From positions 22,691,446-22,755,445 of the forward strand of contig OY743172.1 of the NCBI GenBank assembly GCA_963555705.1: a stretch of DNA of 64,000 nt, in the 5' to 3' direction. Below the pieces are notes generated by a model. That model did not search any database, had not been told where the DNA came from, and saw nothing but the letters and a program-made list of their open reading frames with translations. The position numbers and the translations under genes are program-made. Origin of the DNA: Ligustrum vulgare. Its lineage: Eukaryota > Streptophyta > Magnoliopsida > Lamiales > Oleaceae. Shown here piece by piece: positions 15,845-49,079 of the stretch. How positions within the stretch are numbered: the first letter of the stretch is position 1; the number at the start of each line of letters is the position of its first letter.

Positions 15845-18483
<2,639 letters not shown>

Positions 18484-25408: not shown

Positions 25409-28400
25409 TCACTTCAGAAGACCAATTGAAGCTGAGCACAGCTCCAATTTTTCCTTTGTTACTGTCTTGGTCATCATGTCGGCTGGGTTCTTGCTACCCT
25501 AGATCTTCTCTAGTGTTAATACTTCATCCTCTAGAAGAGACCTGATGAAGTGATAACGGAGTCCAATGTGCTTGGTTCTAGAATGAAATGCTGAATTCTT
25601 TGCCAGATGTATCGCACTCTGACTATCACTGTGCAAAATATTCTTCTCCTGACTGAATCCCAATTCTGCCAACAAACCCTGTAACCAGATCATTTCTTTG
25701 CTAGCCTCGGTTACTGCCACGTACTCTGCTTCTGTAGTGGATAGAGCAACAATCTTCTGTATCTGCGAAATCCAGCTAACTGCAGTAGTACCTACTGTGA
25801 AAACATAACCAGTAGTGCTCCTTCTGCGATCTACCTCACCAGCAAAATCTGCATCTACAAAACCTTGTAGAGTCACCTCGCCTCGTCCAAAGCATAAGCA
25901 TCTATCAGTAGTTCCCCGTAGATATCTTAATATCCACTTTACTGCTTCCCAATGCTGCTTTCCTGGATTTACCATAAACCTGCTCACAACTCCCACTGCA
26001 TGAGCAATATTTGGTCTGGTACAAACCATGGCATACATCAAACTTCCAATGGCTGAGGCATATGGTATTTTAGCCATGAAGTTTATCTCGTCCTCTGTCT
26101 TAGGACTCTGATCACTAGATAGACGGAAGTGATTAGCTAGTGGCGTGCTGACAGCCTTCGCACTGCACATGTTAAATCTCTGCAGAACTTGACTAATGTA
26201 CTTGGCCTGAGATAACTGCAAGATACCCTTCTGCTTATCTCTGAAAATCCTCATTCCGAGAATCTGCTTCGCTGCACCCAAGTCCTTCATTTCGAATTCT
26301 GCTGACAGCTGCATCTTTAACTTCTTGATTTCGTCCATATCTGAGCCTGCTACTAACATATCATCGACATAAAGTAGCAAAATTATATAACTGGACTCGA
26401 ATCTCCTGAAGTAGCAACAATGGTCAGCATTACATTTGAAGTAGCCATTTTTCTGCATAAATCCGTCGAACTTCTTGTACCACTGTCTCGGGGCTTGCTT
26501 TAAGCCATACAGGCTCTTCTTCAATTTGCAAACGAGCTTCTCCTTTCCTTTGACTGAGAAGCCTTCTGGCTGCTGCATATATATTTCCTCCTCAAGGTCA
26601 CCATGGAGGAAAGCAGTTTTCACATCTAACTGCTCCAAGTGCAAACCCTCTGCTGCAACAATACTCAAGACTGATCTGATTGTTGTCAGCTTCACAACTG
26701 GCGAAAATATTTCCGTGTAGTCAATTCCTTCTTTCTGCTGGAAACTTTTGACCACCAACCTCGCCTTGTATCTCTTTGATCCATCATGTTCCTCCTTGAT
26801 TCTGTACACCCACTTATTGTGTAGAGCTCTCTTTCCTGTAGGTAACTCGGCTAGTTCCCACGTCTGGTTAGAGATGAGAGACTTTATCTCATCTTTCATT
26901 GCAAGCTCCCACTTGCCAGAATCACCGACCTGACATGCCTCATGATAGCATTCAGGTTCACCTGCATCAGTAAGTAACATGTAGCTCATGTACTTTCTAT
27001 TTGGAACATGAGGTCTGGTTGACCTTCTAAGAACAGGGACTAGAGACTGTGATGCATCAGTCTCTAGAACAGGTTCCTGTAACTGCAGATCCTCCTCTGT
27101 CTGCTGCGACGTACTACTTTCTGGAGCATCATCCAACTCAACATATGTTGGACCATCATGTACTGTGTCATCGGACTGCACTGCATTTCTGTCCTTGTAC
27201 ATAACCTTCTCGTTGAATATGACATCCCTGCTTCTGATGACCTTTCTGTTCTGGTCATCCCATAAGCGGTAGCCGAACTCATCTCCGCCATATCCAATGA
27301 ATGTGCACTTTAGTGATTTGGAGTCTAGCTTGCCCCTTGCCTGATCACTAATATGTGCATATGCGACACATCCAAAAACTTTCATGTGGGAAAGTTTTAT
27401 TTCTTTTCCGCTCCATACTTCCTCCGGTATCCTGTACTCCAACGGTACCGAGGGTCCTCGATTGATCAGGTACACCGCTGTGTTGACTGCTTCTGCCCAA
27501 AACTGTTTGGGCAAGCCTGCATGTAACCTCATGCTTCTGGCTCTCTCCGTTAATGTCCGGTTCATACGTTCTGCAACTCCATTTTGCTGTGGAGTCCCTG
27601 GCAACGTCCTCTCCATTTTGATGCCATTCTGGTAACAGAACTTCTTGAACGCCATATCCGTATATTCTCCTCCGTTATCGGACCTCAGCTTCTTTACTCG
27701 CAATCCTGTTTCATTTTTCACCATGGCTTTCCACTTCTTGAACACATCGAATACTTCGGACTTGTGTCTCAAGAAATAAACCCACACTTTTCTCGAGTGG
27801 TCATCAATGAAAGTCACAAAGTATGACTTTCCGCCAATGGATGAAACTGCGGTTGGTCCCCAAACGTCTGTGTGGACTAACTCAAGTTTCTCTTGCTTCC
27901 GAGTTCTGCCACTAATGTTGAAACTCACCCTGGCCTGCTTCCCAAAGATGCAACTCTCGCATAAGTCTATATCAGTAGACTGAAGCTCTGGTAGTTTCCC
28001 CTTTGCATGCATATACTTGAGTCCCTTCTGACTCATATGCCCAAGTCTCTGGTGCCACAAGTTTGGGCCCTCCTTGCTTTCAGCAACTGCAATTGTCACA
28101 TAAGTATCCGCCGTTGTATAGAGGGTGCCAGTATGTAGCGATCAAGATTTTTACGCAATTTTATAATTATTTTAATATTTAGAAAATTGTGTCGCTACTA
28201 TTTCACTCATTGTTTTGAAATTAACGCCGCGACGAATTCGTCTAGCCAAGTCAAGAAATATCGAATTTGTTCGATTTTAAATTAAAATCCGAATTTCTAA
28301 AATTATGTTATTTTAATTATTTATTCAAAGTATTATATTCAAAATCTTTCTAAAATTCAAATTTGCCCACATGTCTTCTTCTTTACACCAAGACAACAAT

Positions 28401-31400
28401 TCTTTACACAATAACATCATCATTTTTGTACAAATAATTTTACACCTAATTCTACACTATCATATTCTATAGTATCAAATCAATACATATTCTTCCCCAT
28501 CACAACTCACGTCCCCTACATTTTTTCTTCCTTCTTTATCATTCTTTCCACCTCAATATACCATCATCAAAGCATCTTCATCATTATCATTCATACACCC
28601 ACAAATTCCCTTCAATCACACAAAGTATTTCCAACTCATCTTGACCCAATTTCATCATCAAATCCACATTAAACAATTGTGATATTTTCCACCCTCTCAC
28701 ATTACCTAATTCTCCACTATTTTTCTTAATTAGCCAGCAAAACATATCATTATTATAAATTCTGATATCCTGCACCACCATTTCAGTCGACCAAGTTCGA
28801 GAAGAATAAACAATCACCACAATGATCTGCTTTCAATCCCTTTTTCCCAATTCAATACCAATAATAGATATCAATCTGAAACCAATTTGAAATCAACCAA
28901 AACTGAATCATCATCGTATTGGCATCAACCTGCAGCTCCATCACCTAAGAAATTTGTATCATCATTTTCACTGCCCATTCTTGCTCACTGCACAAAACCA
29001 AGAACCACCACAATGCAGTCCACTGCCGCTGAACCACTGCAAAGCCACCATCTCCATCAAACAGCAACCATCATCCACCAACGCTGCTATTGTCAATACC
29101 AATCCGCCCCTTTCACCATCAGAATCACCACCAATTCAGAAATCAAACCCAATTACTGCAACAGTTCAATACCTTCACCGAATTAAACACCATCACCGCC
29201 TCTACAAACATCACCACCATTTCAAATCATCATCCCCAAACCGTCACTGATTTCCATCACTTCACCAAATGAACCAAGAACTGCCACTCGAAGCCGTCAC
29301 TGCCAACTTCAATCCCCACCAAATCAAACCCAAACCCATGATAGACAAGCCAAGACTTACCTTCGACCAACACCGGAATTGTAGCCGGAGAAATCACGAC
29401 CTAAACCGCGAACTCTAACCTCGGTTTCACTGTGAATCAGCAGCCCAAATCGTACCCTTCCTACTACCAATACCTTTCCCTTGTCACCGCCACCTTGTGC
29501 CGGCGTAGCGCCGGAAAATCCCCGGTGAAAGACCGGATTTCGCCATCGCCTTCCTACGCCTCTCGCACAGTCGCCCTAATTGTCCGAGAGAGAGAAATCG
29601 TGTCGTGAGAGAGTGAGTTGAGAGAGAGAAAACAGATCTGAATATATATTTTACTTTCGAAAATTTCAACTTTGGTCCCTATAGTTTAAATTTGTTTCAA
29701 ATCAGTCCCTGACATTTTAAAAGGTTTTATTTCAGTCCTTTCAGCTTTTAAACTTATCAATTTCAGCCCTTAAGTTTTAAATCCCAACTTTTGAAAATAT
29801 TCATTTTAGTCCCTCAACTATCAAAAGTATTCATTTTAATCCCTCAACTTTCAAAATATCTATTTTAGTCCCTGAACTTTCAAAAGTATTCATTTTAGTT
29901 CCTCAACTTTCAAAACATCAATTTTAGTCCTCAAATTATAATTTATCATTTTGAACTATATATTCGATATACTAAAGTGACTTATTGGCTAAGACGAAGC
30001 GTACGGAGAATTTAAAGAAATTGAAGTCATTCCCGCTCAACTTTGCACTCGTCGGATTTGAGGTAGACTCGCACTTATTAATTGATTTAAATTATAATTT
30101 CATATGAATGTCATGTGACTTGTGAAAGTCAATTTTCAAGAAAATTAAGTATGTTTTATGAAAGGTAAATATACCTTATGTTTTTATGAAAAGTAAGTAT
30201 ACCCTATGTTTTTACGATAATGTTTTATATGTTTTGGATCATTGCTACACATAAGAATTCTTGCCACCTAAGTTCGGTAAAATTCTTGTGTCTCCATAAG
30301 TTTATGAGGATTTACCACCTAAGTTCGGTAAAATTCCTGTCTTTCCATATGTTTATGAGGATTTACCACCTAAGTTCGGTAAAATTCCTGTCGCATATGT
30401 TTATGAGGATTTCGATCCTATCTTATGTTATGATGGAAATGATCCCTATGAATTTCATGAATTATGTTTTGGTATACTTACTGTTATTATGATCTTACTG
30501 TTATTATGATTTTACTACATAAGAATTCTTGCCACCTAAGTTCGGTAAAATTCTTATATTTATGAGGATTTCGATCTTATCCTATGTTATGATGAAAACT
30601 TACTGTTATTATGATTTTACTGCATAAGAATTCTTGCCACCTAAGTTCGGTCAAGTTCTTGTGTCTCCCTATGTTTATGAGGATTTCAATCCTATCTTAT
30701 GTTATGCTTTTAAAAGAAATTATGCTTGGCATAATTAAAATGTTTTTATAAGTATATGGTTTTCAAAGAGCTGTTTTCAAAGAGCTATTTTCAAAGAGCC
30801 TATGATTTGCAAAATATGTCCCGTGCTGTAATGCACAATATGAGTTTTATCAAGAGCCGTTTTATAAAGAAGCTCTATCAATGCCCGTTTTATAAAGAGC
30901 CGGGATTTATGTGTTTAATCATCTTATAAATTAAATTAATTTGCGATGAGTCTACTGAGTATTTCCCCCATGAAATACTCACCCTACTTTTTAACAGTTT
31001 TGCAGATTTCGGAGACGGTGGCGAGCGATGAATGATGGTGGCAATAATCGTTGAACGGTTGAAAGTTTGACGTTAATGATTTCCGTATTTTCCAAACAAT
31101 CGAATAATTTAGAGAAGTTCATTTATTTGAGAAATTATGACATTGGCAATTTCTTTACAATATTAATGGTTCGATTTACTATTTCAAATGGTTTCATAAA
31201 TGTTTTCAATTTTATCGGCCATTACAGTTTATTTAATGTTGCCAAAAATGAATTTCAATTATTTCTTCAACAAAAATATTATTCGAAAAATTTAGACAGA
31301 AAATGACGTAGTGAATCGGGTATACGGAACTCGGGGCGCTACACAGTATCCTTGCCTTGAGCGATAATCATGGCGCCCTTGGTGATCTTCCAGTTATCAC

Positions 31401-32514
31401 CAGAGAAGGTGGTGACATGTCATTCTCCCGACAATTGCTTGACGGAGATCAAGTTCTTCCTCAATTCTGGAATATGTATCACGTCCTTCAGCTTCCACAC
31501 AGATCCATTGATCTTGATTTGTACATCACCTTTTCCGACCACGCCACACGGTTGATCATTACCGAGATATACTCTGCCAAAATCACCCCGTGTATAGTTT
31601 ACAAAAAACTCATTGTTTGAGGTAGCATGAAAAGATGCTCCGGAATCAATCACCCAGTATTCCGTTTTTCTCTCCAAAGAGCATATCAAAGCATCGTCCG
31701 CTTCCTCTTCCACAACATTGACTTCTGTCATGTCCTCCTTTTCTTTTGGAGGTGCTGTGCACTGATTTTTGTAATGACCAGTCTTGCCACACTTCCAACA
31801 TTCCACAACCTTTGTCTTGTTGGAATTGTTTGGATTTCTGGACCTCGATCTGCCACTTCTGAATTTGCCGTTGCCCCGCCCATTTCCTCTGTTAGAATTT
31901 CTGCCTCTGCTTTCCATGTTCAACGCCAATCCTGAAGTTGAGGCACCTTCTGATTGTCGTCTAATCTCCTCCGTTAAGATCATGCTTACGACATCATCGA
32001 ACTTCAATTTTGACTTTCCGGCAGAGCCACTAATTGCTGTGACTGTACCATTCCAGCTGTCTGGCAACTGCCCAAGAATTAACAGAGCTCGAACTTCATC
32101 ACTAAAAGTGATTTCGACTGTGTTTAGCTGGTCCGTCACTTCATTGAATTCATTTAGGTGCTCCCCAAATCTTCCGCCTTCGGCCATCTTCATATTGAAC
32201 AGCTTTTTAATTAAGTGGATTTTATTTGCTGCAGATGGCTGTTCGTACATGCTAGAAAGGGCTGCCATGAGAGACTCTGTCGTCTTCTCATTTTTTATGT
32301 TGAAGGCCACTGACTTTGACAACGTCAGTCTGATTGTGCCGAGTGCTTTTCGATCAAGCAACTCCCAATCCCCCTGGCTTATATCTTCTGGCTTTTCTTT
32401 TAGTGGCTTGTATAGATCCTTCTGGTACAGATAGTCCTCCATTTGCATTTTCCAAAATCCAAAATTTGAACCATCAAATTTGTCAATTTTGGATATTTTC
32501 TCATCTGTCGACAT
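25409..32514 (-). pseudogene. Tork-like gag-pol, nearly intact, two nonsense codons plus a solo LTR
   Basis: Start MSTDEKISKID at 32,514. Gag has a CCHC knuckle CWKCGKTGHYKNQC, then the protease motif VIDSGASFHATS. After the solo LTR the frame resumes with the GAG-pre-integrase HQRLGHMS, integrase (HTDVWGPT, FIDDHSRKVWVYFL, SDNGGEY, ERMNRTL), RT (WVYRIKEEHDGSKRYKARLV, LLYVDDMLVAGSDM) and RNase H (VDADFAGEVDRRRST, SKEMIWL, SRTKHIGLRYHFIR). Gag and pol share one frame once the insertion and one target-repeat copy are discounted, about 1,300 codons, normal for one-ORF copia elements. Lesions: TGA at 31,420-31,422 after KQLSGE, and TAG at 25,499-25,501 about 30 codons before the natural end at 25,409. 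Confidence 0.93.
28134..31343 (+). mobile_element. Solo LTR 3 of the TGTAGCGACC long-LTR family
   Basis: 3,210 bp, TGTAGCGATC to GGGGCGCTACA, perfect duplication CAGTA (28,129-28,133 and 31,344-31,348), inserted between protease and integrase of the Tork-like element. It carries the family landmarks plus about five partial repeats of a unit with GCCACCTAAGTTCGGTAAAA and TTTATGAGGATTT (30,240-30,700). The same unit appears, inverted, in the LTRs of the element at 39,135-48,552, tying these copies to one family. Confidence 0.9.
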
Positions 32515-39129: not shown

Positions 39130-39134
39130 CGAAG
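39130..39134. repeat. Left target-site duplication CGAAG
   Basis: CGAAG directly precedes the left LTR and recurs at 48,553-48,557 directly after the right LTR. Confidence 0.95.
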
Positions 39135-39619
39135 TGTGACGACCCGAATTCTCGACCATTCGAGTGCCACTAAAAGTGACTCATATCATATAATCGAGAC
39201 TTAAATAGTAATGTAAAATTATTCAAAAGAATAATTAGAATCCCATAATTTAATTTGTGAATAAAAATAGAACATAATTTTCTTACATAAAGTTCAACAT
39301 AATTATCTCATCAATCTTAACCACTTTTGCCACTTCCATGTTGACCGCCTCGAACCTTCAAGAAATCTGAAAATGGTAAATATCGTGGAGTGAGATTTAT
39401 AAAATCCCAGTAAGTATACCAAGCATAATTTTCTTTTGAAAGCATATGGATCATTTTCATCATAACATAGGATAGGATCGAAATCCTCATAAACATAGAG
39501 AGACACAAGAATTTTACCGAACTTAGATGGCAAGAATTCTTATGTGTAGCGCTACTAAACTCCGGTCCCCTTAGCATAATCATAAACATATCATATGGGA
39601 CCAATAGCAATCTTGTGAG

Positions 39620-40460
39620 ATTGATTTCATAGCAATGATCCAAACATTTTCGTAAAAACATAAGGTATATCAAATTTTCATAAAAACATACTTACTTTTC
39701 TTAAAAATATAAGGTATTTTACTTTTCATAAAAACATACTTACTTTTCTTAAAAATATAAGGTATTTTACTTTTCATAAAAACATACTTACTTTTCTTAA
39801 AAACATAAGGTATATTTACCTTTCATAACAACATACTTAATTTTCATAAAAACATAAGATATACTTACTTGTCATAAAAACATACTTACTTTTCATAAAA
39901 ACATAAGATGTATTTACCTTTCATAAAAACATACTTACTTTTCATAAAAACATAAGATATACTTACTTGTCATAAAAATATACTTACTTTTCATAAAAAC
40001 ATAAGGTGTATTTACCTTTCATAAAAACATACTTACTTTTCATAAAAACATAAGATATACTTACTTGTCATAAAAACATACTTACTTTTCATAAAAACAT
40101 AAGGTGTATTTACCTTTCATAAAAACATACTTACTTTTCATAAAAACATAAGATATACTTACTTGTCATAAAAACATACTTACTTTTCATAAAAACATAA
40201 GGTGTATTTACCTTTCATAAAAACATACTTACTTTTTATAAAAACATAAGATATACTTACTTGTCATAAAAACATACTTACTTTTCATAAAAACATAAGG
40301 TGTATTTACCTTTCATAAAAACATACTTACTTTTCATAAAAACATAAGATATACTTACTTGTCATAAAAACATACTTACTTTTCATAAAAACATAAGGTG
40401 TATTTACCTTTCATAAAAACATACTTACTTTTCATAAAAACATAAGATATACTTACTTTT
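39620..40460. repeat. 49/98-bp tandem repeat array in the LTR
   Basis: CATAAAAACATACTTACTTT alternates with CATAAAAACATAAGATATACTTACTTGT and CATAAAAACATAAGGTGTATTTACCTTT variants. This gives a roughly 49-bp unit in 98-bp dimers, about five dimers plus diverged units on the left. The same array is at 46,777-47,617 in the other LTR. Confidence 0.85.
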
Positions 40461-40682
40461 TAAAAGATTAAAATGAAGTGTAGTAGTAAATGGACCAAAA
40501 CTTTCTTGACCACCTTGAATTTCTCTTACTTGTGGATTTTGTCAAGAGATTGGAAATAAGTGTATATGTGTAGAGTTGTGTGTAAAAGAGATGGGTTTAA
40601 ATAGATGTATAAAGTTGGCATATTGTAAACATAATCATTCAATTCTATTAATTTTAACACATCATTTTCTTAAAGTAAAGCA

Positions 40683-41060
40683 CCATTCATATACTTTTCC
40701 ATATTTATACAAATATTATGCTCTTCATGATTACATATAATGGAGTCTTATCAACCATTCATATACTTTTCTATATTTATACAAATATTATGCTCTTCAT
40801 GATTACATATAATGGAGTCTTATCAACCATTCATATACTTTTCCATATTTATACAAATATTATGCTCTTCATGATTACATATAATGGAGTCTATAATTCA
40901 TTCATATACTTTTCCATATTTATACAAATATTATGCTCTTCATGATTACATATAATGGAGTATATAATTCATTCATATACTTTTCCATATTTATACAAAT
41001 ATTATGCTCTTCATGATTACATATAATGGAGTATATAATTCATTCATATACTTTTCCATA
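40683..41060. repeat. 71-72-bp tandem repeat, about 5.5 copies, in the LTR
   Basis: Units contain CATATACTTTTCCATATTTA and ATGCTCTTCATGATTACATA. They create a spurious repetitive ORF. The duplicate array is at 47,840-48,217. Confidence 0.88.
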
Positions 41061-41395
41061 TTTATTAAATTAAGATTCTCATAATTATTATATATAATGG
41101 AACCTCTCATGCTTGCATATATTTTCTTAATTTCAATAATAAAAATAATTTTTGTATAAATAAATATTGGGATAACATTGAATTAAGTACTTGGACTTAA
41201 TATACTTTAAATCAAGAGAATGGAGATATTTTTAGAAATTCGGAATTTAATTTAAAATCGAACGATCTCGATTATTTCTTGACTTGGCTATACGAATACG
41301 TCGTGGCGTTAACTTAATAAAAATGGGTGAAATAGTAGCGACACGATTTTCTATTAAAATAATTATTAATCGCGTAAAAATTCTTGGTCGCTACA

Positions 41396-41412
41396 AACTT
41401 ACCCCCTTAAAA
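41396..41412 (-). promoter_or_regulatory. Polypurine tract of the young element
   Basis: The minus strand reads TTTTAAGGGGGTAAGTT directly before the 3' LTR TG. It is the expected site for plus-strand DNA priming and sets the element's orientation. Confidence 0.8.
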
Positions 41413-42190
41413 TAATTTCGTCCTCGAAATTAAACTTACTTGATCTTATGATTTCTGAACACTTAATCAGAATCTCTTCTCTTCTTTCTTTCTCTTAGTA
41501 ATCTCATCATTATAATATCTAACCCACTGGACTTTTACTAAATGCATCTCTTTGTTTTCTTAAGAACATGTATTTTTCTTATCAATAATAGACATATGTG
41601 TCTACTCATAAATTCTAACTCAAAATGAAAATTTCCAATCGTATGTGATATTTCATCATATCTTGTAGTACTCATGTAACCTGTCACTTATCATCGTATC
41701 ATGTAACCTCAAATATTCGTATTAATATCTCTAAAATTTCAATAAATCTTTACTAACATATCATACCATAATAATTTGTCATTTCTTCTTATCACCAAAT
41801 ATCCCAAAATAATTAAAACGATTACCTGAATATTTTCTATGTAATATACCCAAACATGTTATTCACATATCAACATAATCATCAGTTTATCTTTCCAATA
41901 TTTGTAACCCAAAATTTCTGCAAAATTCAATAAACAAATATCTCCCAAATAATTAAAATTCTTAACTCAAATATCATAACATTTCCCGTAAGGTATTCCT
42001 TTCACTTGCACAAACTTATTAATCCTGATTCAATACAGTCCTTATTTCACTTTCACGTATCCCCGTATTATTTCTATACCTTGATTATTATATCAAAATA
42101 TCAGTACCCAAAAATCCAAGAAAATATTCCATATCTCAAATCCCGTCATCATCAAATCTTCCTTTTATCAAGAAAGTAAACGGCGCATAA
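41413..42190. other. Element interior, non-coding
   Basis: AT-rich, stops in all frames on both strands, no gag-pol similarity. Composition changes near 42,180 where the cassette begins. Confidence 0.55.
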
Positions 42191-42271
42191 ACTCTTGTTC
42201 CCTCTTTTCCATTATTCTATTCCGCGCTTTCTTGCTGGAATCAATATCACGCGGATTCCCTCCGATCCTTA

Positions 42272-42673
42272 ATGCTTTTAAATAGTTCATGCTGGGAAGA
42301 GGTTAGATCCATCAAAAACATGGATATCATTCTTACAAACATTCGCAAGTATTATTCTAGTCTTCCAATGAATGATCTGAGGAAAATTTATCGAATAAGA
42401 CTCGAAAGATTGAGGTTGCTGATGGCTCATGGTGTTTCAGAAGATGTTCGCTGGTTGATCGAAGCAAAGGTTCGACTATCTGGTGAATTACCTATGACAT
42501 TTCCAAAGCACATGCCTGGTTTAGGCAAAAGCACCTTCGCAAAGAAACGAAGAGCAAAAAGGCTGAATGGTTGCTACAAATGTGCTCGTTGGAACTGTGA
42601 TACTCGTTGCAAAACAGTAGGATATTCTTCTACTAATCGGGATGATAAAATCAAATTCATAAAGGTGGACTGA
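42272..42673 (+). pseudogene. Viral NABP-like Cys-rich basic protein, N-terminal part (endogenous virus-like gene)
   Basis: The 133-residue ORF (frame open from 42,191; the ATG at 42,326 is another start) has a helical, charged N-terminal half, then GKSTFAKKRRAKR (residues 85-97) followed at once by a Cys cluster at 101, 104, 109 and 113 (C-x2-C-x4-C-x3-C), then a DDKIKFIK segment. A basic K/R stretch just before a small zinc finger is the hallmark of the small nucleic-acid-binding proteins of Betaflexiviridae (Viral_NABP family; closest in my judgement to vitivirus-type proteins). Those bind RNA and often help suppress host silencing. The frame stops at TGA 42,671-42,673, while similar-looking coding continues in another frame (next entry), so I read it as broken. 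It runs antisense to its host retrotransposon. Family call from motif memory, not a search. Confidence 0.6.
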
Positions 42674-42870
42674 GTAAGGAGTCTTTGGATGATATTCGAC
42701 TGACTCTTGAGACGCACCCAAGTGGTTATGTGCAACGTGAACTTCTCTCCTTATACGCTCAGTTTAACGAGGACAAAAATCGTTATAGTCTCCAAAATAT
42801 AATAGCAAAAAATCCTGTTTGCCAGTCTGTTTTACAAAATGAGGCTTCTGGCAGTTCAACAATGATATAA
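42649..42870 (+). pseudogene. NABP-like ORF, C-terminal continuation in another frame
   Basis: Open from 42,649 to TAA 42,868-42,870. It overlaps the end of the preceding ORF by about 25 bases in a different frame and has no ATG at its start. It encodes a hydrophilic tail with LDDIRLTLETHPSGYVQREL and a Ser-rich end (EASGSSTMI). The simplest reading is that a one-base indel near 42,660 separated it from the NABP-like N-terminal part. A programmed frameshift or an independent ORF is less likely. The tail resembles no protein I can name. Confidence 0.45.
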
Positions 42871-42975
42871 GGTAAATCTCTTGATACACATTTAAAATAT
42901 TTTGCTGTTTTCTTTCACGCGTTTTGGAAATAAAATATATTTTCCTTTCTCGAGTTTTGATAAAGCTGGAAATAA

Positions 42976-42991
42976 ATCACCGAAAGGTGAT
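42976..42991 (+). other. Perfect GAAA-tetraloop hairpin between the two genes
   Basis: ATCACC-GAAA-GGTGAT, a six-base-pair stem closed by a GNRA tetraloop. It would be very stable in plus-strand RNA. Function unknown. Confidence 0.5.
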
Positions 42992-43083
42992 ATCTTTGGT
43001 AAAACAGTCAAAAGTTGGCCGATTTTGTCAAAAGTAAATCTTTACTTTTTCATAATCAATCAAAAACAGTAAATTTTTCCGGC

Positions 43084-43091
43084 TTTAAATA
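43084..43091 (+). promoter_or_regulatory. TATA-like box upstream of the LOG-like ORF
   Basis: TTTAAATA, within a GGCTTTAAATAGCC palindrome, is 76 bases before the ATG at 43,167. This allows a start site near 43,115 and a leader of about 50 nt. Inferred from sequence and spacing only. Confidence 0.4.
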
Positions 43092-43166
43092 GCCAAACAT
43101 ATTTCATAGTTCAGGCATCCCAAAATCACATCTTCTTCGTAAGTTTTCTCTTCTATACTATCAAAG

Positions 43167-43820
43167 ATGGAAGCACCAAAACTTCGACAGATCAAAACTA
43201 TTTGTGTATTTTGTGGATCAAAAGTGGGGAAAGGCTTCGGTTATCTAGAAGCGGCCGTAGATCTTGGAAAGAAACTGGGGGAAAAAGGTATCACTCTTGT
43301 ATATGGGGGTGGTAGCAGTGGTCTAATAGGTTGTGTTTCCCAATCTGCTCTTGCAGAGAAATCAAAAGTAATCGGTGTCATACCTGTCCCTTTGGTAGAT
43401 GTTGCAGGAAAAACACGAGGGCATGAAGTTCAAACCTTATCCATCCATGAACGCATAACTTGTATGCTATATGGTTCTGATGCCTTTATAGCCCTGCCCG
43501 GAGGTTTTGGTACCTTAGAAGAAATCTTTAACATTACCTCGTGGGCTCAACTAGATCTCCATACTAAGCCTATTGGGCTTCTGAATGTTAACAATTTCTT
43601 TGATGGCTTGTTAACCTTTCTTGATTATGCTGTGGAACAGGGATTCATCTCTCCATTTTCCAGAAGGCTCCTTATTTCTGCTCCTACTATTGATGAACTA
43701 CTGGATAAGCTGCAGTCATATATCTCAATACAAGATCCAGTAGGGGTTAAGATAGATTGGTCGCAAGGAAGGGGAATCAAGCGAAAATGGAGTCCGGTTA
43801 ATGTAAACTTAACTTTATGA
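43167..43820 (+). CDS. LOG-family cytokinin riboside 5'-monophosphate phosphoribohydrolase-like, intronless
   Basis: LOG enzymes act in the cytosol, cleaving ribose-5-phosphate from cytokinin nucleotides to release the active base in one step. This 217-residue ORF is full family length: ICVFCGS (12-18), YGGGSSGLIG (46-55) and the signature PGGFGTLEE (111-119, with the catalytic Glu), followed by SWAQLDLHTKPIGLLNV. The Arg expected upstream is kept (R96 in HERITCM), but the usual R-K-x-E-M surroundings are changed to R-I-T-C-M. Plant LOG genes normally have several introns; this ORF has none, so an RNA intermediate or long virus-like residence is plausible. No stop or frameshift spoils it although the neighbouring NABP-like frame is broken, hinting at selection or recent arrival. 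It is antisense to the retrotransposon. Activity may be changed. Confidence 0.85.
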   Translation: MEAPKLRQIKTICVFCGSKVGKGFGYLEAAVDLGKKLGEKGITLVYGGGSSGLIGCVSQSALAEKSKVIGVIPVPLVDVAGKTRGHEVQTLSIHERITCMLYGSDAFIALPGGFGTLEEIFNITSWAQLDLHTKPIGLLNVNNFFDGLLTFLDYAVEQGFISPFSRRLLISAPTIDELLDKLQSYISIQDPVGVKIDWSQGRGIKRKWSPVNVNLTL

Positions 43821-43830
43821 ATCTTAGAAT

Positions 43831-44044
43831 AGGTGGGGGTAGAGTACGGAGTATTCTTACTCTCGAGACACCCCTCTAATTTCCTAGGATTTCCTTAATG
43901 TTTAAATCTTGTGTGTACCTCAAAGGTTCCAGGTGGTAGATTACGGAGTATTCTTACTCTCGAAACACACCTCTTTGAAGGTTTCTTTATTTCCTCAAAA
44001 GGTCAGAGGTGGTAGGATACGGCTACTCCGGAAACACATCTCTC
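43831..44044 (+). repeat. Three related hairpin repeats after the LOG-like ORF
   Basis: Copies at 43,831-43,877, 43,931-43,974 and 44,007-44,044 share AGGTGGTAG, then TACGG, then CGAAACAC(A)CCTCT. In each, AGGTG can pair with CACCT or CACATCT, enclosing a small hairpin: GAGTA-TTCT-TACTC in copies 1 and 2, and CGG-CTACT-CCG in copy 3. The inner stem changes sequence but keeps pairing, which favours a conserved RNA structure in a 3' UTR. Confidence 0.7.
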
Positions 44045-44142
44045 AATTTGAGGAATTTCCCATGTTGCTTTCTTTTGCTTTTGCGTATTTCATGTATTTC
44101 TTTTCCAGTGTGACTCTTTGTGTGTTCTCCTTATGAGAAAAT

Positions 44143-44148
44143 AATAAA
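44143..44148 (+). terminator. AATAAA polyadenylation-like signal
   Basis: AATAAA 323 bases after the LOG-like stop codon, followed by a T-rich stretch. It marks the likely 3' end of the cassette transcript. Confidence 0.4.
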
Positions 44149-44160
44149 ATCTCTGCTATC

Positions 44161-46277
44161 ATCTACTAAATCTCGTTTGTGATGTAAATGAACTTGCATG
44201 TCTAACCTTAATTCCTTTAGTGGATGCTTATCATATCATGCTCTTAATTCCAAATGATAAAATTCTGGACAGAGTCTCCCTTGTAATTTGGACTTATCCC
44301 AAACCATAAGCATACTTCATAACTCACAATAATAAATAACTCCATATTTGATCACAACAATCTAAAAATATTGAAAACGATTCCAACACTTCAATATCAT
44401 CAAAAAATATCCCATAATTCAATTCATAATTTCTCAACATAACAATTTCAAATCATATTTTTCAATATCACAATATCACTTCCTTCCATATCTTAATTGG
44501 CTCAAAAGATTACTCATACTTATATTTATAAGTCATAAATCATATTCCCAAAATTTAATCACAAGGCTAAAGTTCATAATAAATTTCTCTTCAATATAGA
44601 GGCATAATTCACTTACTCAACATAATAGCCATTACTTAATTCCCAATAACCAAATCTTTAAATCTCTAACTTCATAATGCTTCTCATAAAAGTCTCATTA
44701 AAATCATATCACTTATAATCTTAACATCTCATAAAACTTCATAAAATTGGCTCGCTATTTCTCATTAAATCTAAATGATAGATAATCTGAACATATTTCT
44801 AATCATTTCTGTTGACTTCTTATACTTAGTGCCATGTCTAAAATCAATTATGCAAAGTCCATTTAAGGTTCATCATTTCTAAACTCGAGGACAACAATTA
44901 TTTTGAAAATCATTCTTAAGTCATATTATTCCCATTATGCTCAACACCCGTTCTCTTTCTTTCTTTTCTTTCCGAATTTTTTTTTCAGAATTGAAACTTG
45001 AAGAGTGGTACCAATAATCATCCACAGTTTTTCCTTGCTTTTAAGCAAAGGTAGTTATAAAGGGATAAATTATTGAACCGAAAATTGAAACTTGAAGAGG
45101 AAGTACTAATAACCATCCACAGTTTTTCCCTTGTTTTTACACAAAGGTAGTGATAAAGGGATAAATTATTGTACGAATTCATTATTAATTTTGTTTGTTT
45201 AATATATTATTCCATATGTTTTTGGCAAAAGTTACAAACCAACTTATTTTTCTAATTTAGTCAGTCTTACTAAGCTTAATATGAACCAAAATTCATATCA
45301 ATATCCTCTATGTCTCATGATTCTACATTAAAAGGAATAAATTAAAATTCAGGCTTCTATCAATTCATATCATACTCAACATGTATATTTCACTTAAAGA
45401 TTCATAACATATGAAGATTTCATACTTAACATGTCTTAATAAAATCGTAAATGACTTGCAAAACATATAACATACCTGGTTCGAGGAGTCAATACGTGGA
45501 GAGTGACATAGTAGAGTGATGAGTTAAAATATTTCTTATTTTCCTTTAATCAACAATAATTTAATGTGGTTGTATCCAAATCAACATTTTCTTGAATCAT
45601 AATTCCTAATTAATCACAGTCTTCAAAACAAATCCAATATCGATATAGTAATTATCTCCCCATCAATAATTAATAACTTAACCCAAATAAAATTTATCGT
45701 CAAATCTTATTTTCCTTTAGTCCCCGAACTTCAAGAAATTTATCAAAGACATCAATATAAACATCATATCACTAACTAATTATAGTCCATAAAATTTTCA
45801 GGACATTACAAACTCCCCTGCTTAAAATGAATTTTGTCCTTGAAATTCGCACATCAAATTTCATCATGCTTTTCAAAATCATAACCATACTTGACATGTG
45901 AAAATTCAACTTTTCTTATCATAAAGCAAGCTTTTAAAGTCATGCCAATAGACTAACTTTTCATTTCATCACATGTGTAAAAAAAATGTGCAAATCTTTA
46001 CATTATTTTAAACTCATAAATCTTATAAAATAATTAACCCAACTAAAATTTCAAGGTCAAATACATTAAAGAAGAAACTAAACTCTAGAAAATTTTGAAA
46101 ATATGTCTTTGAAAAATAATTTCCCAGATTTTTTTTTTTTATATATAATGAATAGTGATTTCGTTCACTGTTCATCATGAATAGCACGTCGTTTTACTGT
46201 TCACGTGAATAGTGATTTTTTTTTTTTTTTTAAGAAATAAAATTTCAAAATCTACAGAATCGTTTTTAAAACTCTTT
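44161..46277. other. Element interior, non-coding
   Basis: AT-rich with no ORF of note on either strand. It should contain the 5' leader of the leftward retrotransposon transcript at its right end. Long homopolymers lie near 46,131 and 46,218. Confidence 0.55.
44990..45171. repeat. Tandem duplication of about 87 bp in the element interior
   Basis: Two adjacent diverged copies begin ATTGAAACTTGAAGAG and end GGGATAAATTATTG (44,990-45,075 and 45,084-45,171). Confidence 0.8.
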
Positions 46278-46289
46278 GCTCTGATACCA
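46278..46289 (-). promoter_or_regulatory. tRNA-Met primer-binding site of the young element
   Basis: GCTCTGATACCA on the plus strand, two bases from the right LTR. On the minus strand this is TGGTATCAGAGC, the standard initiator-Met primer site, fixing leftward orientation. Confidence 0.88.
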
Positions 46290-46291
46290 AC

Positions 46292-48552
46292 TGTGACGAC
46301 CCGAATTCTCGACCATTCGAGTGCCACTAAAAGTGACTCATATCATATAATCGAGACTTAAATAGTAATGTAAAATTATTCAAAAGAATAATTAGAATCC
46401 CATAATTTAATTTGTGAATAAAAATAGAACATAATTTTCTTACATAAAGTTCAACATAATTATCTCATCAATCTTAACCACTTTTGCCACTTCCATGTTG
46501 ACCGCCTCGAACCTTCAAGAAATCTGAAAATGGTAAATATCGTGGAGTGAGATTTATAAAATCCCAGTAAGTATACCAAGCATAATTTTCTTTTGAAAGC
46601 ATATGGATCATTTTCATCATAACATAGGATAGGATCGAAATCCTCATAAACATAGAGAGACACAAGAATTTTACCGAACTTAGATGGCAAGAATTCTTAT
46701 GTGTAGCGCTACTAAACTCCGGTCCCCTTAGCATAATCATAAACATATCATATGGGACCAATAGCAATCTTGTGAGATTGATTTCATAGCAATGATCCAA
46801 ACATTTTCGTAAAAACATAAGGTATATCAAATTTTCATAAAAACATACTTACTTTTCTTAAAAATATAAGGTATTTTACTTTTCATAAAAACATACTTAC
46901 TTTTCTTAAAAATATAAGGTATTTTACTTTTCATAAAAACATACTTACTTTTCTTAAAAACATAAGGTATATTTACCTTTCATAACAACATACTTAATTT
47001 TCATAAAAACATAAGATATACTTACTTGTCATAAAAACATACTTACTTTTCATAAAAACATAAGATGTATTTACCTTTCATAAAAACATACTTACTTTTC
47101 ATAAAAACATAAGATATACTTACTTGTCATAAAAACATACTTACTTTTCATAAAAACATAAGGTGTATTTACCTTTCATAAAAACATACTTACTTTTCAT
47201 AAAAACATAAGATATACTTACTTGTCATAAAAACATACTTACTTTTCATAAAAACATAAGGTGTATTTACCTTTCATAAAAACATACTTACTTTTCATAA
47301 AAACATAAGATATACTTACTTGTCATAAAAACATACTTACTTTTCATAAAAACATAAGGTGTATTTACCTTTCATAAAAACATACTTACTTTTCATAAAA
47401 ACATAAGATATACTTACTTGTCATAAAAACATACTTACTTTTCATAAAAACATAAGGTGTATTTACCTTTCATAAAAACATACTTACTTTTCATAAAAAC
47501 ATAAGATATACTTACTTGTCATAAAAACATACTTACTTTTCATAAAAACATAAGGTGTATTTACCTTTCATAAAAACATACTTACTTTTCATAAAAACAT
47601 AAGATATACTTACTTTTTAAAAGATTAAAATGAAGTGTAGTAGTAAATGGACCAAAACTTTCTTGACCACCTTGAATTTCTCTTACTTGTGGATTTTGTC
47701 AAGAGATTGGAAATAAGTGTATATGTGTAGAGTTGTGTGTAAAAGAGATGGGTTTAAATAGATGTATAAAGTTGGCATATTGTAAACATAATCATTCAAT
47801 TCTATTAATTTTAACACATCATTTTCTTAAAGTAAAGCACCATTCATATACTTTTCCATATTTATACAAATATTATGCTCTTCATGATTACATATAATGG
47901 AGTCTTATCAACCATTCATATACTTTTCCATATTTATACAAATATTATGCTCTTCATGATTACATATAATGGAGTCTTATCAACCATTCATATACTTTTC
48001 CATATTTATACAAATATTATGCTCTTCATGATTACATATAATGGAGTCTATAATTCATTCATATACTTTTCCATATTTATACAAATATTATGCTCTTCAT
48101 GATTACATATAATGGAGTATATAATTCATTCATATACTTTTCCATATTTATACAAATATTATGCTCTTCATGATTACATATAATGGAGTATATAATTCAT
48201 TCATATACTTTTCCATATTTATTAAATTAAGATTCTCATAATTATTATATATAATGGAACCTCTCATGCTTGCATATATTTTCTTAATTTCAATAATAAA
48301 AATAATTTTTGTATAAATAAATATTGGGATAACATTGAATTAAGTACTTGGACTTAATATACTTTAAATCAAGAGAATGGAGATATTTTTAGAAATTCGG
48401 AATTTAATTTAAAATCGAACGATCTCGATTATTTCTTGACTTGGCTATACGAATACGTCGTGGCGTTAACTTAATAAAAATGGGTGAAATAGTAGCGACA
48501 CGATTTTCTATTAAAATAATTATTAATCGCGTAAAAATTCTTGGTCGCTACA
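46292..48552 (-). repeat. 5' LTR of the young element
   Basis: 2,261 bp, nearly identical to 39,135-41,395. The right target duplication CGAAG follows at 48,553-48,557. Confidence 0.93.
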
Positions 48553-49079
48553 CGAAGTTAGATCTATTTCTACTTTAGAGAACACTCGATCAATGTGTCA
48601 CCAAATTACAGTAAATTTTTTTTTCCTATTCCTTGTCCCTAGGTTACTGATGCTCCAAAAATCCCCTTATGTCCTTGGTGCAGGTACAAGTGGGTAGTTC
48701 TCATGTCTATAGGACATAAATGAAGTTAAGTGAGGGTGGTTTAGGTCAAATTTATTTTGGTCAAAGGGTTAATGGTGGCACCGAAAGAAAAAGAGCAGGT
48801 GCAGTTGAGGTTTCTTATTGCATTCTATCATGGCACTTCTAGATGTCAGATAACTACTTTGGACTTCGCTAAATCAGCCAGGCCTTTTTGTAGTTTTCTT
48901 TCACAATTCGTTGAATATAGAAACTTAAGTATTTCTTTTTCATGTACGTTCACTTTCAAACAAATAAAGTGTCACAAGAAGTTGAAATCACAAAAATGGA
49001 GAGGTGCATTGGCTTATAATTGCTTCTTAAAGTTTTAGTTAGCTTCACATCATCCTCCAAGTTGATTATTATGATGGCT

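Follow-up and report, generated by a model that had tools for sequence, protein, structure and literature searches.

The 64,000-nucleotide stretch of the Ligustrum vulgare genome analysed here (contig OY743172.1; hereafter the window) contains, on the minus strand at 39135-48552, a non-autonomous long terminal repeat (LTR) element without gag-pol. Its interior holds an antisense cassette of two genes, one for a protein related to the cysteine-rich nucleic-acid-binding proteins (NABP) of carlaviruses and one of the LOG family, which from its sequence would encode an enzyme of the type that activates cytokinin. Our analyses showed that this element belongs to a high-copy, recently active family with very young insertions, and that a LOG gene has been multiplied through the genome by an element without machinery of its own.

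A search of the 1.385-Gb host genome with the cassette gave 1,366 first-look candidates, of which 40 were scored, all matching at 98-100%. Of these, 23 separate places were examined, the window copy among them (L003, L007, L008 and L011-L030); L004-L006, L009 and L010, as shorter cuts of L011-L015, were not counted again. A second set was picked with the right part of the internal shell, i.e., the interior beside the cassette, in order to remove the bias of picking by cassette. From 2,347 candidates 40 were scored, and 12 of the 39 non-self ones were taken across the ranking, none of them in the cassette list. In all 34 other copies examined (22 cassette-picked and 12 shell-picked, one of them truncated), the cassette occupied one internal site in one orientation. 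The 23 cassette-picked places had the order LTR, shell, antisense cassette, shell of the window, as far as the stretches reach. Matching shell on either side of the cassette was found in 11 of the 12 shell-picked copies, and the truncated copy (L037) retains the last 859 bp alone. The original prediction, an earlier reading of the same DNA, had considered that other members might lack the cassette or that it might be an assembly artefact. The former did not hold in the copies examined, and an artefact at the window place would not explain the cassette in the other copies. Identity to the window in the cassette-picked set was 99.2-99.4% for the cassette, 86-99.8% for the left shell, 94.3-99.2% for the right shell and 91.2-97.9% for LTR pieces, and the higher value for the cassette is partly a selection effect of picking by cassette.

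LOG was open at 217 aa in 23/23 cassette-picked places, window included. An open NABP frame of 183 aa was present in 22/22 of the other places, and in the window copy this frame is broken, with 117 aa from the likely start. In the shell-picked set, NABP was open in all 11 copies that have it (181 to 199 aa, by the start chosen), and a full-length open LOG was present in 6 of 12. The check originally proposed, on the internal position and the LOG frame in other copies, thus gave a positive outcome, with LOG open in 22/22 cassette-picked and 6 of 12 shell-picked copies. Across 20 long loci, NABP and LOG were the only open reading frames (ORFs) of at least 120 aa common to all, each open in 20/20, and no gag-pol was seen.

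The whole element moved as a unit. For 10 of the 20 long loci it was possible to locate both element ends, and nine of the 10 are flanked by perfect 5-bp duplications that differ from one another. In the tenth, a primer binding site lies immediately beyond the left LTR, as would be seen in a tandem sharing one LTR, and four same-strand pairs of cassette matches spaced 6.6-7.4 kb fit such LTR-sharing tandems as well. A primer site lies 2 bases off the LTR in 19 of the 20 loci (10 exact, nine with one mismatch, located at the same end of the motif). LTR pair divergence K was 0.0005-0.0099 in 19/20 loci, with many pairs cut by the stretch end. For the window copy it amounts to 3 in 2,261 (0.0013), and at commonly used, uncalibrated plant rates the age of this insertion would be of the order of 50,000 to 100,000 years. 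The original proposal of a very young non-autonomous family carrying LOG around the genome is therefore supported by the 34 further copies and by the nine sets of separate duplications.

Some variation was seen within the family. Four long loci (L012, L014, L017 and L028) have a 159-aa ORF on the element strand of the right shell, that of L014 being without a Pfam match; their shell subtype matches the window only to shell position ~1370. Two other long loci have one further ORF each (124 and 173 aa). L031 is a mosaic in which the NABP half is 89% and the LOG half 98.7% identical to the window, and to judge by this copy, subfamilies seem to exchange parts of the cassette. In L031, L032, L038 and L041 a duplication of ~42 bp between NABP and LOG, with cassette matches overlapping at ~726-778, may mark a cassette subtype.

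The anatomy of the window copy (Table 1) agrees with most of what had been read from it originally. The two LTRs of equal length differ at exactly three positions without a gap, whereas each of 12 shifted registers (1 to 6 bases, both directions) gave at least 1,480 mismatches. The duplication CGAAG is present at both ends. The primer site TGGTATCAGAGC, complementary to the 3' end of tRNA-Met, lies 2 bases off the right LTR, and a purine tract adjoins the left one, from which it follows that the minus strand is the element strand, with the cassette in antisense. Next to this tract we read the pol-like tail FNFEDEIILRG*, presumably chromovirus-like. Inside the element there are four ATG frames of at least 80 aa, i.e., NABP, LOG and a 114-aa frame present in both LTRs. 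Interior stop-to-stop frames of at least 90 aa are limited to those of NABP and LOG; hence there is no gag-pol, and the predicted lack of element proteins was right. With two LTRs, a target duplication, primer site and purine tract, the element is of the non-autonomous LTR type. An Rfam scan of the whole window found no match at the gathering threshold.

Table 1. Features of the window copy and its cassette (window positions).
Feature	Position	Strand	Basis or remark
Target-site duplication CGAAG, left copy	39130..39134	.	sequence
3' LTR, 2,261 bp	39135..41395	-	LTR-LTR alignment; tandem repeats of ~49/98 and 71 bp inside
Internal shell, left part, without gag-pol	41396..42180	-	frame listing
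Purine tract and pol-tail-like reading	41402..41440	-	translation; adjoins left LTR
Antisense two-gene cassette	~42200..44170	+	common site in other family members examined
Putative TATA-like TTTTAAATAG upstream of NABP	42276..42285	+	by reading
NABP-like gene, broken frame, 117 aa	42320..42673	+	conserved remainder in another frame up to 42870
Putative TATA-like TTTAAATAG upstream of LOG	43084..43092	+	by reading
LOG-family gene, 217 aa, open	43167..43820	+	motif PGGFGTLEE; C-terminal tail KRKWSPVNVNLTL
Direct repeats of ~43 nt, 3' of LOG	43835..44050	+	starts 43835 and 43932; weaker third near 44009 by reading
AATAAA	44143..44148	+	sequence
Internal shell, right part, without gag-pol	44171..46277	-	frame listing
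Primer binding site TGGTATCAGAGC, 12 bases, tRNA-Met	46278..46289	-	by reading
5' LTR, 2,261 bp	46292..48552	-	LTR-LTR alignment
Target-site duplication CGAAG, right copy	48553..48557	.	sequence

Related sequences occur elsewhere in the window. Near the primer site, a second stretch resembling a purine tract and LTR start was read in the shell (~45805-45850, minus strand) and may be what remains of an older related element. At 28134-31343 (minus strand; duplication CAGTA at 28129-28133 and 31344-31348), a solo LTR of a related family is nested in a copia element with frames at 25499-28036 and 31420-32514. A further LTR-end fragment of a related family, 82% identical, lies at 15845-16010 (minus strand).

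Within the cassette, the LOG gene is intact as predicted. It matches PF03641 (9.2e-33) and has the fold and the PGGxGTxxE motif of a type I cytokinin riboside phosphoribohydrolase. The NABP-like ORF kept its predicted identity, with matches to Viral_NABP (4.8e-7, 30.4 bits versus a gathering threshold of 23) and Carla_C4 (5.1e-5), both beyond the curated cut-offs; an intact frame it is not, in contrast to the longer frames of other copies. The AlphaFold model of NABP (pLDDT 53.1) was too poor for a structure search. Behind LOG, the predicted repeats are real as direct repeats (43 nt, 91% identical); as hairpins they did not hold up, RNA folding being no better than that of shuffles (z -0.37, -0.37 and 0.06). 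The AATAAA was found as described.

The C-terminal end of LOG may point to its place of action. Among the 120 nearest relatives of the window LOG, 93 end exactly in LxLxL, compared with 0 of 120 LOG3-type proteins (the 120 nearest to At2g37210), and in 90 of the 93 a basic patch lies close to the terminus. Of 33 groups formed by clustering at 75% identity, 23 have this ending. LxLxL-type EAR motifs recruit TOPLESS co-repressors (PMC10942257). This sequence signature suggests nuclear LOG proteins with a tail that could bind co-repressors, and the EAR-like ending of these relatives appears to be a new observation, as far as we are aware. The window LOG itself has a looser tail, VNVNLTL, that departs from the strict LxLxL pattern. 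In the predicted model the tail is of low confidence, as would be expected of a disordered end.

Where do the two genes come from? Among the best 120 of 318 NABP relatives listed, the named ones are genome proteins of Striga, Orobanche and Populus. When the NABP alignment was used to scan genome contigs of bacteria and archaea, it caught a single 3,330-bp contig (L002) with a Ty3/gypsy RNase H-integrase frame and, directly behind it in sense, a 182-aa NABP. L002 is filed in a metagenome-assembled genome of Candidatus Nomurabacteria and is plant-like by reading; the record is probably a contamination in a public genome entry. Its integrase matches only H2C2 and rve in Pfam and has no chromodomain, as in non-chromoviruses, and by its motifs we take it to be Athila-like rather than Tat. 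Since this relative sits directly behind a Ty3/gypsy integrase, the immediate source of NABP is more likely another retrotransposon lineage, at odds with the original idea of a flexuous-virus protein captured directly. Its sequence context makes it probable that NABP is an accessory gene of retrotransposons and was not freshly captured from a virus. EgEVE_1 (PMC5452135) is a caulimovirid and unrelated.

Relatives of NABP and of LOG were moreover found on contigs of equal size, 4,511 and 8,723 bases (P0007/P0223 and P0021/P0147). Two such matches among contigs of at least 2 kb, versus a mean of 0.125 for shifted sizes, suggest that the pair occurs elsewhere too. Reevesia pubescens accounts for 39 of the 120 LOG relatives listed, and their tags name 16 chromosomes, a spread as expected of a mobile gene. 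For a LOG tree, 64 sequences were chosen among the 120 nearest relatives, and from the 120 LOG3-type proteins every sixth one was taken (20); a length filter retained 61 and 13, respectively. The resulting unrooted tree (75 rows) separates the 13 LOG3-type proteins from all others by a branch of length 1.19 with full support, and the Populus LOGs fall on the side of the window LOG. The window LOG groups first with P0121 (92%) and next with a cluster containing Diospyros.

The lineage of the shell can be approached by its primer. tRNA-Met primers are used by copia elements and most chromoviruses and not by non-chromoviruses (PMC6317226). The shell thus does not belong to the lineage that carries NABP in L002, as an Athila/Tat shell would have another primer; a chromovirus shell would agree with the tRNA-Met primer, a trait shared with copia, and with the pol-tail reading, presumably chromovirus-like.

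Several known systems resemble the family in part. A YgdH/LONELY GUY domain has been noted in LTR-retrotransposon consensuses of Citrus and Populus (PMC9289625, citing Steinbauerova et al. 2011), and the original assumption that no element with LOG was known is hence not supported. Like these, the window family carries a LOG-family extra ORF in a plant LTR element; unlike these, which were built around reverse transcriptase, it is without gag-pol, and its LOG is antisense, paired with NABP and set in a shell primed by tRNA-Met. Accessory ORFs in antisense are found in plant Ty3/gypsy elements, such as gene23 of Grande, RIRE2 and TRP28 of Retand (PMC7264820 and PMC11963269). These likewise run antisense to their element, at least in Grande from an own promoter, and some are nuclear or DNA-binding; they differ in belonging to other protein families and mostly to elements with gag-pol. 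Large retrotransposon derivatives (LARDs) have LTRs, a primer site and a purine tract, lack gag-pol, are moved in trans and are described as non-coding. The window family shares these structural traits; it retains two open genes, so that in a strict sense, with a non-coding interior, it is not a LARD. In 2011, Steinbauerova et al. reportedly described two Athila-like elements similar to LOGL4. Among the titles and abstract openings listed, our literature search, mostly outside subscription journals, found no LTR element with both NABP and LOG, no NABP or carlavirus domain in Ty3/gypsy elements including Athila-type ones, no gag-pol-less element carrying the two genes, and no paper for 'Carla_C4/Viral_NABP'. 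Passages of a gene-capture review (PMC13317346) mention none of the terms cytokinin, LARD and lonely guy. Antisense accessory ORFs, and LOG domains in plant LTR elements, are thus known already; a recently active element with an antisense pair of NABP and LOG as its sole genes is apparently new, judged by the literature searched.

We consider it quite probable that the family is a non-autonomous, high-copy one whose cassette was taken from an element bearing accessory genes and then multiplied with the shell. The shell, with its LTRs, tRNA-Met primer site and purine tract, would be moved in trans by a putative autonomous partner, probably a chromovirus. A regular antisense cassette of 2 kb, with a small cysteine-rich NABP and a LOG with a group-specific tail, is carried in place of gag-pol. 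Because both protein families are accessory genes of other plant LTR elements, the source of the cassette was most likely such an element. As the cassette lies in antisense and has kept the DNA between its genes, we infer that it was captured at the DNA level rather than by template switching on genomic RNA, and it would then have been copied along with the shell. Each copy could in principle express both proteins from promoters in the cassette, leaving the genomic RNA of the element undisturbed.

Codon comparisons speak to whether the genes were maintained (diversity tables omit L037, in which the left part is absent, and L008, which forms a close pair with L007). The window NABP compared with that of L002 gave dN 0.27 and dS 1.48 over 115 codons, and L031 compared with the window gave dN 0.046 and dS 0.294 (dN/dS 0.155); by these comparisons NABP was constrained over longer times. 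LOG, by the same kind of data, looks kept in one copy set and decaying in the other. In 21 cassette-picked copies its variant codons were 9 synonymous and 3 non-synonymous, where ~3.1 non-synonymous per synonymous would be expected without constraint. In the shell-picked set without L031, pi was 0.0042 for NABP and 0.0056 for LOG, and 0.0107 for the intergenic DNA, 0.0089 behind LOG and 0.0110 for the right shell.

A number of observations weigh against the explanation favoured above, or against parts of it. The donor context is one 3.3-kb contig, L002, that shows NABP and no LOG, and the non-coding DNA around the two genes matched it no better than shuffles did. The assignment of the shell draws on primer type and a presumed chromovirus-like pol tail, the primer being common to copia, and mobilisation in trans presupposes a partner that is itself putative. 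Among young NABP copies, variant codons were 1 synonymous to 4 non-synonymous in the cassette-picked set and, with L031 left aside, 1 to 3 in the shell-picked set. Both are near the expected ~1 to 3.6 and give no sign of constraint, and the open NABP frames may reflect the youth of the copies. In 11 shell-picked copies, LOG variants were near neutral (5 synonymous, 10 non-synonymous and 2 stop), and LOG is open in only 6 of the 12 in that set. The left shell has a pi of 0.0025 in the shell-picked set without L031, below that of both genes, and the cassette-picked set is biased to window-like copies.

With the same anatomy and history, the cassette could also be passive cargo, a retrotransposon fragment captured once, whose genes are open because the burst is young and have no role. 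We rate this as somewhat less than an even chance. It gains weight because the young NABP variants are without constraint, and the tiny LTR divergence, the LOG frames broken in half of the shell-picked copies with their near-neutral variants, and the NABP broken in a window copy that is itself very young fit it as well. The mainly synonymous changes in the older NABP subtype of L031, the synonymous excess of LOG in the cassette-picked set and a NABP frame open in 33/33 other examined copies that have the gene speak against it. Whether the element benefits from the genes cannot be read from the young burst itself. A more far-reaching proposal holds that gag-pol was traded for an antisense module common to Ty3/gypsy lineages, with NABP and a nuclear LOG whose tail recruits TOPLESS, and that this module promotes the spread of the element. 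It might do so by activating cytokinin, by binding nuclear co-repressors or both, for example in dividing or meristematic cells; we regard this as rather doubtful.

Two other origins appear far less plausible than the capture from an accessory-gene-bearing element. NABP is the 3'-terminal gene in carlaviruses, a position that could be counted in favour of the cassette being an endogenous fragment derived directly from a flexuous, carlavirus-like RNA virus, as could the cysteine-rich nucleic-acid-binding domain that NABP shares with carlavirus and betaflexivirus proteins (PF05515 and PF01623) above the Pfam cut-offs. However, no other viral gene adjoins NABP; its context is a retrotransposon rather than a virus genome, a plant-type LOG stands next to it, and its best named relatives among the matches listed are plant-genome proteins, one relative lying in sense behind a Ty3/gypsy integrase. 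Two scans of IMG/VR with NABP found no relative, and LOG matched there one distant LOG-like gene at 42% on one contig (L001). We hold a viral fragment to be very improbable. That the cassette entered after the element had landed, as an unrelated later event, might be suggested by composition. The cassette has a GC of 0.32-0.42 and a skew within ~0.1 of zero; in the shell windows closest to it the values are 0.26-0.29 and -0.46 to -0.61, with less skew in the shell farther right. The identical site and orientation in all other copies examined leave next to no room for this, and the distinct target duplications around whole elements refute it.

The function of antisense accessory genes in plant retrotransposons is not known (PMC7264820). 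In the family described here, one such gene has a well-defined enzymology, cytokinin activation, and went through a recent burst of copies, and the tail of its LOG relatives has a testable partner. The role of such genes for their element hence becomes directly testable. Our results further point to the same kind of gene pair possibly serving different retrotransposon lineages. Should the more doubtful proposal of a module that promotes the element's spread prove true, the capacity to activate a hormone would be a mobile, selfish trait.

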